Assembly (NCBI RefSeq): GCF_013034685.1
Contig: NZ_WQGO01000002.1
Span: forward strand, 372,001-436,000
DNA from: Ruegeria lacuscaerulensis
Lineage (GTDB): Bacteria > Pseudomonadota > Alphaproteobacteria > Rhodobacterales > Rhodobacteraceae
Reading direction: 5' to 3'
Length of the DNA stretch: 64,000 nucleotides
Notes under the pieces: model-generated
What the model saw: the letters and a program-made list of their open reading frames with translations, nothing else
Database searches by the model: none
What the model was told of the DNA's origin: nothing
Translations under genes and position numbers: made by a program
In this document: piece by piece, positions 24,612-30,161 of the stretch
How positions within the stretch are numbered: position 1 is the first letter of the stretch
How the letters are laid out: each line of letters begins with the position of its first letter

Positions 24612-24625
24612 TTGACTAAAGTTAA
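24612..24625 (-). promoter_or_regulatory. NnrR/DNR-type box upstream of nirE
   Basis: TTGAC-TAAA-GTTAA, followed on the plus strand by GGAGC exactly as in the norC box. The centre is 127 nt before the nirE start, farther than in the other units. GAACCT (minus strand, 24589-24584) is at the spacing expected for a -10. It abuts the terminator of the nirS unit, marking nirE as a new transcription start. Confidence 0.6.
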
Positions 24626-24680: not shown

Positions 24681-25082
24681 TCAGGGTTCGACGGTGATCA
24701 TTCCGATCATGTTCTGTGTCTCCCAATGCGGTCCGCACAGGTAGTCCTGCGGGCCGGGGGTGAGGAAGGTCAGATCAACCGATTCCTCGGGGAAAAGCCG
24801 GTCGCTTTCGGGCTCGCTGCCATCTTTCAGCAACACCGAATGGCTGGTGCGCTTGTCCACATTGACCCAGCGCACCGTGGTCCCGGGTTTGACCGTCAGG
24901 TCGACCGGGCAGAAGGTGTATTTGTACATCAACACCACCTCGGCATCCTCGACCGCGGATGAGGGCTGGCCGAACAGCTCGACATAGCGGTCTTCGGCTT
25001 CGGCGCAGAGTTCGGCAGTGTCATCCGCCCATGCGGGCGCAGCCAGAAGCAGCAGGGCGGGAAGAAGGTGTTGGGGTTTCAT
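24681..25082 (-). CDS. exported cupredoxin in the nirS operon
   Basis: A 133-residue protein with a signal peptide (residues 1-19, Ala-Trp-Ala) and a single type I copper fold. The ligands are read as His81 (TSHSVLL) and Cys116, His119 and Met125 (YLCGPHWETQNMIGM), the plastocyanin/pseudoazurin order. It is probably a periplasmic electron carrier between quinol-linked cytochromes and NirS, NorCB or NosZ. It is the third gene of the nirS unit. Its sequence does not look like classical pseudoazurin: the N-terminal region contains an extra acidic helix with a Cys (AELCAEAEDRYVELF). Confidence 0.82.
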   Translation of the reverse strand: MKPQHLLPALLLLAAPAWADDTAELCAEAEDRYVELFGQPSSAVEDAEVVLMYKYTFCPVDLTVKPGTTVRWVNVDKRTSHSVLLKDGSEPESDRLFPEESVDLTFLTPGPQDYLCGPHWETQNMIGMITVEP

Positions 25083-25136: not shown

Positions 25137-26921
25137 TTACTGTTTAACCACGTTGATGAACGCGCTGTCGTCGTCTAGCGCCAGGCTGGTATCCAGCGTC
25201 ACGTGGTGGAACCGGGCGGCGGCAAAATCATCGTGGATTGCAAAACCGACGGTGTAGGTTTTGCCTGCTTCCAGTAGCACATCCCCCGGTGCGCCCGAGT
25301 TCAGCGGACGGGTAAAGACCACCGTCCACATTCCGCCGTCCAGGCTGGCCGAGGCGGCAATCTCGCCGTCATTGACCACGCGTTGCTCCAACAGATAACC
25401 GTTGCTAGCGCTGCCATCGGCATAGACGCGCATCAAGTCCAAATAGGTGCCATCAGCCAGATATTGCTCGATCTGTTCAGCCGCGTGCAGCTTGTCCCAA
25501 CCACCCAGAGGCTTGCCCCGGCGGCCTTTGGTGTCGATCTCGGTCCGGCTTTCACTGATATACTTAGTCACTGTGTCCTGAGCGGCCAGACGGCCCGAGA
25601 CATCCGCATTTGCTGCAATCTCCTCGGCGCCCGGATCAAAGGGCATATAGGTGTTGTCCGCGTGGCACGAGGCCCAGCAACCCACCTGATCGCCCATTTC
25701 GATACCGGTGCCGGTGATCATCATGGCCACCTTGATCTGGTTGTCGGGGTCCATCTTTCCACCATCCACGAACGGGGCAGGGCTGTGGCCCGCATCCGGC
25801 CATTGCAGGCGGATATAGAGGTTCTCATCATCATGGGCCGCCTGCACGGTTGCGTCGATCACACCGCGTTTTCCGGGGATCGGTGTCGGTTCAAGCTCTC
25901 CCCCGGCAACAATCTTGTTGCCGATCGCGTCCAGCTCGGCGGCGTGACAGGTCGTGCATTTGTCGCCGCCCTTGGTCAAAGGCCGTGCGCCCCCATGTGA
26001 TCGACCATTCTGCACCCATTCGAACGAGGCTTGACCCGGATAGAACAGTTTCATGTCAGCGCTGGCGACCGCATTCCAGTCGATATTCGTGCCGACATCG
26101 CTGCCACCCTCAGCGGGCGCGGCGGCCTCTTCGCCAGCGGCTTTGGCCCGTTCCTCGGCCACAGCTGCATCTACAGCTGCTGCGATCTGGGCCTGCACCG
26201 CCTCTTGCTGCGCAACACGTGCAGCTTTTTCAGCCTCAGCCTCTGCCGCCTCTTTGGCTTCGATCCGTTCCAGACTGGCCAGATATTCAGCCGGTATCTC
26301 GCGGATAAAGGCCGGGTTCGGCGCCTCGAGTTCTTCCAGATACTCCTCATCCGCCCGATCACGGGCATCCGAGTGGGCAATCCCCTTGTGGCAGTCGATA
26401 CAAGTCTGACCCACGGTCATCGCGTTCAAGTGCTGCTGCCGTGCGCGGGGTTTCTGGAACTCGGGCATCATGGATTCGAAATCGTGGCAGTTACGGCACT
26501 CGCGCGAGTCGGTGGCCTTCATCCGTTCCCACTCGTTCATCGCCAGATGCACGCGCTTGGCTTCGAATTTCTCGCGCGTGTTGATGGTACCGACCATCTT
26601 GCCATACAGCTCTTTAGACGCCTTGATCTTGCGGATGATCTTGTGCGTCCAGTCCTTCGGCACGTGGCAATCGGAACAGACGGCGCCGACGCCTGAACGG
26701 TTCACGTCGTGGATCGTTCCGGTGTATTCTTCGTAAACGAAATCGCGCATCTCGTGGCACGAGACGCAGAATTCCTTGGTGTTGGTCGCTTCCATGGCGG
26801 TGTTGAACCCGCCCCAGAAGATGATGCCGCCGACAAAGGCCGCGGCGATTCCAGCCACGGGCATTCCCCACAGGAAATACCGGCGCCAGATTGGTTTTTT
26901 CTTTTCCGGTTCGGAGGTCAT
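25137..26921 (-). CDS. NapC/NirT tetraheme fused to a haem-binding dehydrogenase-type domain
   Basis: A 594-residue membrane-anchored cytochrome. One N-terminal helix (about residues 15-38) leads into a NapC/NirT domain with four CXXCH sites (52-56, 82-86, 142-146, 174-178). An Ala/Glu-rich predicted coiled coil (about 215-270) follows. The C-terminal part (about 280-594) has a fifth CXXCH (322-326) and CWASCH (415-420, three residues between the Cys), then a beta-rich region resembling the ethylbenzene-dehydrogenase-related haem-binding family. NirT/NapC proteins oxidise quinol and reduce periplasmic partners. Directly after nirS, it is the best candidate for the quinol dehydrogenase feeding NirS, by-passing bc1. 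The whole fusion is in one uninterrupted frame. Confidence 0.85.
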
Positions 26922-27046: not shown

Positions 27047-28723
27047 TCAGGTGACGTGGTTCGACCGGTTGTAGACGTTGAACTTGCCAGTCGGCGCGAA
27101 CAGACCTTTCACGCGCGCTTTCTCTTCCAGCGTTTTGGCGTCGAAGATCACGATCTCACCGTTAGGCTCTTTCGAGGTCGAGCGGTTCCACTTGGAAACC
27201 CAGACCTCGGAGCCGTCCTGGTTGAACTCGAAGTGGACGGCGACATTGCCTTCCTCTTCGGTGATCTGGATCGTTTTCACGATCTCACCGGTGGCCTTGT
27301 CGATGACCTGCACCGATTGCTGAATTTCAGGCTCGGGGTGTTTGGTCTGGTCGGCCCAGATATAGTCTGATTCCGGGTGGGTCCGGATGAACAGACCGGG
27401 TCCATCGGTTTCAACTTCATAGCAAGTCTGCCATGCCTGATCGGGGTGACCTTCGGGGTCGTTACCCCAAACGGTGACCGTGCCTTCGCCCAGGTGGGTT
27501 GTGCCTGCAACAGGACCGCAATTCGGGTCATCCCAGTTTGCACCAGGGCCGGGGTGCGGCAGCGGCGCAGTGTCGATCAGTGCTTCCAGCTTGTGAGTCT
27601 GGGTATCGACGACAACCATTTTGTTCGACGCGTTTGCGGCGATCTGGAAGTAGCGACCGGTTGGGTCGAAGAACCCATCATGCAGGAACTTGGCGCTGTC
27701 GATCTTGTCGATCCGCAGGTTGTCCAGGTCGGTGTAGTCCACCTGCCAGAGCTGGCCGAGTTCCTTGACGGCGACAATCCATGTGGGCTCGTTCGGGGTG
27801 GTGTAGATGGCGGCCACACGGCTTTCTTCCACATAATCCCCGTCCACGTTCACACCGCGCGTTGAGACAACCTTTTTCGGCTCCATGGTTTCGGCATCGA
27901 CAATTGCAAAGTGCGGCGGCCAATAGGCCCCACCGATGACGTATTTACCGTCACCCGAAACAGCCACGTCGCGGGCGTCATACCCAATGGTGACTTCGGC
28001 CACGAGCATGTTTTCAGGGTTCTGCCACAGGTCGATCTTGGTCATCTTGCCGTCCCGGCCCATCGTGTACCAGAAGCGGCCCGGATTTTCCGGTTCTTCC
28101 AGTTTATGGTGCTCGGACGCTTTCAGAACGTGCACGGCATAGCCGGTTGGGATATGCGCCAGCACTTCCTTGGTATCACCGTCGATCACGGCCACCTTGC
28201 CTACGTCACGCTCAATGACGACAAAGAAGTTTTCCCAGTTGCGGCCATGCAGAGGCTCGGTCGGGTAATCTTCGGGTTCCACATAGACCTTGCGGGTCGC
28301 CATCATCTGTTCCAGCGACATCTCGGGCGGCTTGGGCGGCTCCATCTGGATGTAGGTCGCCATATCGCGGATTTCGTCCTCGGTCATGACGTCCGAGAAG
28401 TTGTTCATCCCACCTTCGGTACCCCATGCGATGATCTTCTCAAGCCGTTCCTGACCCAGTTTCAGGGTACCGGATACGGTGACGGTGCCATCGTCATTTT
28501 TCTTCTCGACCACAGGCTCAAGGCTTTTGCCTGTTGCCCCTTTGCGCAACACGCCGTGACAACCGGCGCAGCGTTCAAAGTACAGCTGTTTCGAGGATTC
28601 AAAGGCTTCCTTGCTCAGGGTTGGCTCTTCTGCCAGGGCAGGTGCAGCGACGCTGCCCAGCAGCATCGCCAAACCGACCCCAAAGGCGCGACCGGTTTTA
28701 TTGTAGCTGATTCCAAGTGACAT
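27047..28723 (-). CDS. nirS: NirS, cytochrome cd1 nitrite reductase
   Basis: A 558-residue periplasmic enzyme that reduces nitrite to NO. The start at 28723 has GGAGAG 5-8 nt upstream and gives a signal peptide ending at Pro-Ala-Leu-Ala (about residue 31). The cytochrome c domain has CAGCH (52-56), and the d1 propeller from about residue 150 has the NirS landmarks YDARDVAVSGDGKYVIGG, SAKFLHDGFFDPTGRYF and FIRTHPESDYIWAD. The length matches other NirS proteins (about 560-570). The haem d1 genes lie downstream on the same strand. The promoter carries the only fully palindromic Dnr-like box in the island. Confidence 0.98.
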   Translation of the reverse strand: MSLGISYNKTGRAFGVGLAMLLGSVAAPALAEEPTLSKEAFESSKQLYFERCAGCHGVLRKGATGKSLEPVVEKKNDDGTVTVSGTLKLGQERLEKIIAWGTEGGMNNFSDVMTEDEIRDMATYIQMEPPKPPEMSLEQMMATRKVYVEPEDYPTEPLHGRNWENFFVVIERDVGKVAVIDGDTKEVLAHIPTGYAVHVLKASEHHKLEEPENPGRFWYTMGRDGKMTKIDLWQNPENMLVAEVTIGYDARDVAVSGDGKYVIGGAYWPPHFAIVDAETMEPKKVVSTRGVNVDGDYVEESRVAAIYTTPNEPTWIVAVKELGQLWQVDYTDLDNLRIDKIDSAKFLHDGFFDPTGRYFQIAANASNKMVVVDTQTHKLEALIDTAPLPHPGPGANWDDPNCGPVAGTTHLGEGTVTVWGNDPEGHPDQAWQTCYEVETDGPGLFIRTHPESDYIWADQTKHPEPEIQQSVQVIDKATGEIVKTIQITEEEGNVAVHFEFNQDGSEVWVSKWNRSTSKEPNGEIVIFDAKTLEEKARVKGLFAPTGKFNVYNRSNHVT

Positions 28724-28784: not shown

Positions 28785-28798
28785 TTGACGAAAGTCAA
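28785..28798 (-). promoter_or_regulatory. NnrR/DNR-type box upstream of nirS
   Basis: TTGAC-GAAA-GTCAA, a perfect palindrome and the best match in the window to the DNR consensus TTGAT-N4-GTCAA. It is centred 68 nt before the nirS start; CAGGCT (minus strand, 28762-28757) is at the -10 position for a box at -41.5. Confidence 0.75.
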
Positions 28799-28885: not shown

Positions 28886-28899
28886 TTGACTTTGGTTAA
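28886..28899 (+). promoter_or_regulatory. NnrR/DNR-type box upstream of nnrS
   Basis: TTGAC-TTTG-GTTAA centred 62 nt before the nnrS start. TAGGAT (28922-28927) is exactly where the -10 would be for a box at -41.5. Together with the nirS box it makes this 230-nt gap a divergent promoter region. Confidence 0.7.
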
Positions 28900-30147: not shown

Positions 30148-30161
30148 TTGACTTTCGTTAA
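30148..30161 (+). promoter_or_regulatory. NnrR/DNR-type box upstream of norCBQDEF
   Basis: TTGAC-TTTC-GTTAA followed by GGAGC, as in the nirE promoter. Its centre is 70 nt before the norC start, with CATTCT (30184-30189) at the expected -10 place. Confidence 0.7.

Follow-up and report, generated by a model that had tools for sequence, protein, structure and literature searches.

A fused NirT::NirB-type cytochrome c gene with six haem motifs behind nirS in Ruegeria lacuscaerulensis and its association with one NirS lineage

The analysed stretch of 64,000 nucleotides from Ruegeria lacuscaerulensis (the window) contains a nir locus in which nirS (27047–28723, minus strand), encoding cytochrome cd1 nitrite reductase (PF02239, Cytochrom_D1, E = 3.8e-120), is the next gene upstream of a same-strand gene for a fused NirT::NirB-type hexahaem cytochrome c. 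The latter (25137–26921, minus strand), identified by its open reading frame, Pfam matches and haem motifs, is a single uninterrupted frame of 594 codons (594 aa) that lies 125 bp after nirS. It is followed by a gene for a small cupredoxin (24681–25082, minus strand; PF00127, E = 1.9e-6), a candidate mobile carrier. Further neighbours matched Pfam or NCBIfam models as a uroporphyrinogen-III methyltransferase, a small cytochrome c and a second cytochrome-D1 protein; the three genes past the cupredoxin gene we take, by gene order, to be nirE, nirC and nirF. NosR, NosZ and NosD are encoded farther along the locus. Genes are called nor and nnrS here presumptively, by comparison with the annotated locus of Ruegeria sp. 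THAF33. The genome also holds two bc1-type Rieske genes and, 2.3 kb from napA, a second, separate gene of the NapC/NirT (NNT) type, so that other donors to NirS are possible.

A perfect FNR/NnrR-type box, TTGACGAAAGTCAA, is located upstream of nirS (28785–28798, no strand assigned) and is the sole zero-mismatch match in the window to the consensus. The listed nirS frame opens at a TTG within this box; the true start is therefore probably an ATG near 28723, 25 codons further in. Boxes with a single mismatch lie ahead of nirE (24612–24625, no strand assigned), the NnrS-like gene (28886–28899) and norC (30148–30161). Because the first of these separates the cupredoxin gene from nirE, nirS, the fusion and the cupredoxin gene may form a separate transcription unit. 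Altogether, the window holds 14 FNR/NnrR-like boxes, presumably regulatory, versus 5.5 expected, a number reached in 1 of 100 shuffles.

The fused protein begins with a Cytochrom_NNT (NapC/NirT) domain (residues 25–184; 26370–26849, minus strand; PF03264, E = 1.2e-69) and ends with a NirB/PcrO/NapO-type dihaem domain of the EB_dh fold (residues 282–594; 25140–26078, minus strand), within which Pfam EB_dh (PF09459) matches residues 334–574 (E = 5.8e-33). Four haem motifs belong to the NNT part, CVSCH (residues 52–56; 26754–26768), CSDCH (82–86; 26664–26678), CRNCH (142–146; 26484–26498) and CIDCH (174–178; 26388–26402), and two to the C-terminal part, CTTCH (322–326; 25944–25958) and CWASCH, a CX3CH motif (415–420; 25662–25679), all on the minus strand. 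An earlier note on this DNA had described a continuous frame with all six motifs intact, joining a NapC/NirT domain to a dehydrogenase-type domain close to the nitrite reductase gene, and this description is borne out. What it missed is that the C-terminal domain looks like NirB (PcrO/NapO), a known partner of NirT. An N-terminal helix (residues 11–46; 26784–26891, minus strand), defined by DSSP in a low-pLDDT part of the AlphaFold2 model, includes the putative membrane anchor, a role suggested by likeness to the NapC/NirT family; over the NNT part the model is weak, with blocks at pLDDT 30–48. The Ala/Glu-rich linker (residues 211–261; 26139–26291, minus strand) forms one helix in the same model. 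The note had proposed an Ala/Glu coiled coil, of which the helix stands and the coiled coil does not: there is no heptad register, and bulky residues occupy at most 18% of a/d positions in any register versus 15% overall. In several other fusions the linker is Pro/Ala-rich. Across the NNT domain, the linker and the C-terminal domain, dN/dS ranged from 0.016 to 0.139 in five pairwise comparisons; all three regions are thus under purifying selection.

We also compared the two halves with curated family models. With 233.9 bits against a PF03264 cut-off of 24.1 and with four CXXCH motifs, the N-terminal half belongs to the wider NNT family. The score for the NapC/NirT subfamily model, NCBIfam TIGR02161, was 266.1 bits, under the cut-off of 310.6, and we therefore claim no more than membership of the broad Pfam family and a role like that of NirT. 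The C-terminal half scored 115.3 bits against a PF09459 cut-off of 33.3 and carries CTTCH and CWASCH, as expected of a dihaem EB_dh protein; it matched a single NCBIfam model, scoring under the curated cut-off. With its two domains in one frame straight after nirS, the gene has the layout of a fused NirTB. Membership in TorC was ruled out (equivalog TIGR02162, 234.5 bits, cut-off 478.2), as was a type II DMSO reductase gamma subunit (subfamily TIGR03477, 38.5 bits, cut-off 169.85). TorC is a pentahaem cytochrome in which an NNT domain precedes a C-terminal haem domain with one extra haem; it resembles the fusion in being a C-terminally extended NNT protein but differs in the type of the extra-haem domain. 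The gamma subunits EBDH gamma and NXR-C of the type II DMSO reductase family are, unlike the fusion, subunits of molybdoenzymes.

How widespread is this gene? A scan of genome contigs confirmed at least 537 relatives, and the best 80 of these were examined. The fusion was found beside nirS in 79 of these best 80 loci; in the remaining one, L120, the contig breaks off. A nirS match lies upstream of the fusion in all 79 (in L093, where the contig ends, only as a fragment) and, by BLAST, a cupredoxin match lies behind it in 75. In 77 of these 79 loci, the fusion frame opens −58 to 192 bp from the nirS stop; the exceptions are L093 and L121, where a long overlapping frame distorts both the figure and the printed gene order. 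On the same contig as L121, a 1207-aa frame (L193) was rejected as a NirS::fusion megaprotein because it overlaps nirS in another frame. Judged by record titles, the best 80 come mostly from Ruegeria and its relatives and also include Labrenzia/Roseibium, Pseudovibrio, Cohaesibacter and Denitrobaculum. In Azospirillum brasilense Sp7 the fusion is plasmid-borne, with a cytochrome-D1 gene on either side and a cupredoxin gene after it; in the annotation of plasmid records such proteins are called only 'NapC/NirT family cytochrome c'. At the level of classes, the dihaem profile matched 12 of 289 genomes in that of the window (seven of the 12 in frame with NNT, the window's own included) and 40 of 369 in that of genome G317. 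Two loci, L038 (genome G644) and L039 (G317), are split: nirS is followed by a separate tetrahaem nirT and then by a separate dihaem EB_dh gene. In another locus (L206:3490–6959), tandem nirS-like genes with 72% and 69% identity to the window NirS precede the fused gene.

The set of five CXXCH and one CX3CH motifs recurs in all 79 fused relatives from the best 80 of at least 537, which argues that the fusion is no chance product. The CX3CH motif, which the earlier note called the rarer of the two, is indeed present but is no peculiarity of this protein. All 11 of the listed unfused dihaem genes that are complete carry it (the fragment L041 stops ahead of the motif), and the split nirS–nirT–dihaem loci have the same CXXCH/CX3CH pair as the fusion. 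Its occurrence in split and other-context dihaem genes refutes CX3CH as a fusion-specific trait.

We then asked whether the fusion goes together with a particular kind of NirS. In the family sample, the full fusion is present in 12 of 295 genomes, and two others hold a contig-cut piece (G114) and a remnant (G225). NirS was matched in 45 of the 265 genomes searched. The 12 with NirS at 79–100% identity are exactly the 12 with the full fusion, their nirS and fusion matches being separated by 124–245 bp, and none of the 32 with NirS at 45–49% identity has it. In G225 what is left of nirS, a fragment whose match contains two stops, adjoins the fusion remnant; these side-by-side remnants (G225:C14:200793–201505) probably reflect loss of the nirS–fusion unit in one lineage. 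Among the 369 genomes of G317's class, 71 NirS matches were found: 25 at 69% identity or more, 44 at 43–53% and two weak ones (34–36%). The fusion-type dihaem domain is present in 24 of the 25; in the last (G980), NirS itself is just a fragment, cut off where the contig ends. Both domains lie in one frame in 21 of the 24, including G1020, whose frame starts at a contig end, and G755, whose frame holds an N run; the other three (G821, G873 and G897) are cut by contig ends. In the 43–53% group, one of 44 genomes has the fusion (G764, on a 4.9-kb contig), G317 has the split NNT and dihaem pair beside nirS, and in G753, G972, G986 and G992 the dihaem-type matches are weak or away from nirS. A contig-cut fusion occurs in G815 without a NirS match. 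Exceptions are also seen in L032, L037, L193 and L194, whose fusions accompany NirS at 42–56% identity (44% in Azospirillum L032, 56% in L037). Thus, within the family samples the fusion co-occurs strictly with a single NirS lineage, and beyond them the link is not absolute.

The component cytochromes are known, and a fused NirTB has already been mentioned in print. In the nirSTB operon of Stutzerimonas, tetrahaem NirT and dihaem NirB are encoded directly after nirS as the domains are here (PMC13086519), and in L038 and L039, the split loci, the domain types follow a nirSTB-like order. The Stutzerimonas proteins, however, are two, whereas here one chain is joined by a linker of about 80 residues; the NirS of L038 and L039 is of a different lineage from that of the window (45–46% identity). 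The NirTB of Halomonas sp. 2A appears to be the same fusion, so far as one sentence tells; in the available text of that article it is mentioned without sequence, distribution, haem count or tandem form (PMC13086519). In Azospira suillum, PcrQ with PcrO and NapC with NapO each combine a quinol dehydrogenase of the NNT type and a dihaem protein resembling EBDH gamma, which relays electrons to a reductase in the periplasm, as demonstrated genetically (PMC5845722); they resemble the fusion by description but are separate genes with NapAB and PcrABC as terminal enzymes. The accessible parts of PMC6295460 and PMC12542776 contain nothing on a NirTB fusion, and searches of the open-access literature for a hexahaem NapC with nirS or for NirT–nirS in Roseobacter gave no match. 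Nor did the open-access texts searched, as far as available, describe how the fusion is distributed, its link to NirS, the invariant CX3CH or octahaem forms. What we regard as new is the NirS-lineage link, the single clade of fused dihaem domains and the tandem octahaem forms.

The identification of the C-terminal half as NirB is suggested by gene order, by the name of a gene in P. stutzeri RCH2, and by the name of the InterPro entry linking NirB to EB_dh, which we take to be 'cytochrome c-552/DMSO reductase-like'. In RCH2, an 'Ethylbenzene dehydrogenase' gene, Psest_0817, lies two locus numbers past nirS (Psest_0815), and the fitness shifts with chromate are −1.5 for Psest_0817, −1.6 for nirS and −1.5 for nirF (PMC5554334; Psest_0816 was not found in the available text). 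Where nirS belongs to clade 1b, the genes for NirT and NirB follow it, and nitrite reduction in strain ZoBell needs NirT (PMC13086519). Another study implies electron flow from NirT through NirB to NirS (PMC8954225). In Azospira, PcrO and NapO relay electrons from NapC-type proteins, and cells that have lost the two no longer grow on nitrate and perchlorate (PMC5845722).

Taken together, our preferred reading, to which we assign a probability of roughly 80%, is that a membrane-anchored tetrahaem quinol dehydrogenase and a periplasmic dihaem EB_dh cytochrome c are joined here in one chain that provides a bc1-independent branch beside the bc1 route. The NNT haems, presumably attached at the CXXCH motifs, would receive electrons from quinol and hand them to the NirB-domain haems of the same chain; such a quinol-to-dihaem relay within one chain is, judged from sequence, the most likely arrangement. 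From there, electrons would reach NirS, directly or via the cupredoxin encoded next, so that the fusion would act as a fixed wire from the membrane to the nitrite-reducing enzyme. With Rieske genes of the bc1 type and another NNT gene also present in the genome, it would be an additional branch dedicated to NirS. Two observations speak against NirTB being generally required: clade 1a-NirS strains of Stutzerimonas are reported without nirTB (PMC13086519), and Rhodocyclus species make NirB although they have no genes for nitrite, NO or N2O reductases (PMC8954225), so NirB can serve another role. The contribution of NirT/NirB to the nitrate inhibition studied in PMC13086519 is called unresolved there.

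Could the fusion serve NirS differently? It might chiefly activate or mature the enzyme, by reductive activation of as-isolated cd1 or by haem d1 insertion, with steady-state electrons arriving via bc1 and a small c-type cytochrome or cupredoxin. NapC is reported to activate cytochrome cd1 reductively (Zajicek 2004, cited in PMC13086519), and both the bc1-type Rieske genes and the family genomes in which another NirS lineage lacks the fusion would fit. We nevertheless consider this unlikely, since activation alone creates no obvious need for a second dihaem domain, still less for tandem copies, and sustained respiration in Azospira requires the PcrO/NapO relays (PMC5845722). Somewhat doubtful, too, is that the fusion feeds the cupredoxin, or a periplasmic carrier pool for NirS, NorCB and NosZ, rather than NirS specifically. 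The cupredoxin gene behind most fusions and the adjacency of NNT and EB_dh pairs elsewhere to unrelated partners (FccAB-like proteins, MtrB-type conduits) favor this alternative, but the occurrence of the fusion tracks one NirS lineage, and in L094, L122, L123 and L125 it lies beside nirS with no cupredoxin detected.

The haem content of the C-terminal domain also bears on the proposed relay. EBDH gamma is the best structural match of this domain (the structural comparison of the model being a VIA-align second look), and its EB_dh fold binds a b-type haem. The domain might accordingly carry fewer than two c-type haems, with CX3CH unhaemylated or a b-type haem kept. This seems very improbable given the invariance of CX3CH in the 79 fusions and 11 complete unfused genes, and given that NirB (PMC8954225) and the EBDH-gamma homologues PcrO and NapO (PMC5845722) are described as dihaem cytochromes. 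If quinol indeed feeds NirS through the fusion without bc1, this bears on the energy yield and on the nitrite and N2O balance of marine denitrifiers. The NirS-lineage link moreover turns into a genome-readable prediction, namely that such strains should keep nitrite reduction under bc1 block.

To trace the history of the fusion, we built a midpoint-rooted tree of dihaem domains with 54 rows hand-picked from 48 loci and the window, leaving out pieces with 250 or fewer matched profile positions. All 41 fused rows fall, together with L161 (cut by its contig), into a single starred group (98/88) that excludes the two rows from split nirS loci; the fused dihaem domains are thus one clade. The NNT tree is compatible with either one or two fusion origins: it shows two changes, one of them forced by starred branches. 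Four relatives are predicted octahaem proteins, with unbroken frames directly after nirS (L157:6621–9458, L158:117–2888, L159:1184–3958 and L160:7774–10569). Each contains an NNT domain with four motifs followed by two EB_dh domains, each with a CXXCH/CX3CH pair. The two copies within a protein share 73–81% protein identity, which makes assembly duplicates unlikely. L156 was rejected as a further case because its second copy shows 99.9% DNA identity and runs up to a stretch of Ns, and L161, cut by a contig end, was left out of the count of complete octahaem proteins. The tandem copies of L157–L159 form one starred group (100/100) in which first and second copies sort apart, and those of L160 group with L161 (100/100). 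Given these two tandem groups, the domain was duplicated independently in two or more lineages, or else a single time, with the copies homogenised afterwards. An automatic 'tandem' count of two changes was not used, as it omits single-domain fusions and rests on the labelling of the cut L161. We tentatively consider it possible that the NirTB fusion is a haem wire in one chain that can be extended: passed on together with one NirS lineage as a dedicated bc1-independent supply, it would have been lengthened to octahaem chains in at least two lineages (L157–L159; L160) by tandem duplication of the dihaem domain, the number of modules setting reach or electron capacity. Nature thus offers a series, from no dihaem domain through a separate one to one or two fused ones, in which the benefit of a tethered dihaem relay can be tested directly.

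Separate NNT and dihaem genes are also seen in other surroundings. Beside split pairs in L165 and L166 are genes for one-CXXCH proteins of 413 aa (L165:6959–8197) and 424 aa (L166:8742–10013), neither with a Pfam match at E = 1e-8; L167 has a protein of similar size and position. In L043 (5843–9573), the two genes precede FccA/FccB-like genes with no nirS nearby, possibly a quinone link of sulfide oxidation. Such occurrences of the NNT and dihaem module fit a general role in passing electrons between the quinol pool and partners in the periplasm. Finally, dihaem EB_dh genes occur near multihaem cytochromes and MtrB/PioB porins in L168 (4381–9371) and L170 (7662–12961), possibly as part of an extracellular electron conduit; in L168 the NNT and dihaem pair, an MtrB-type porin and a multihaem cytochrome adjoin one another, away from any nirS.
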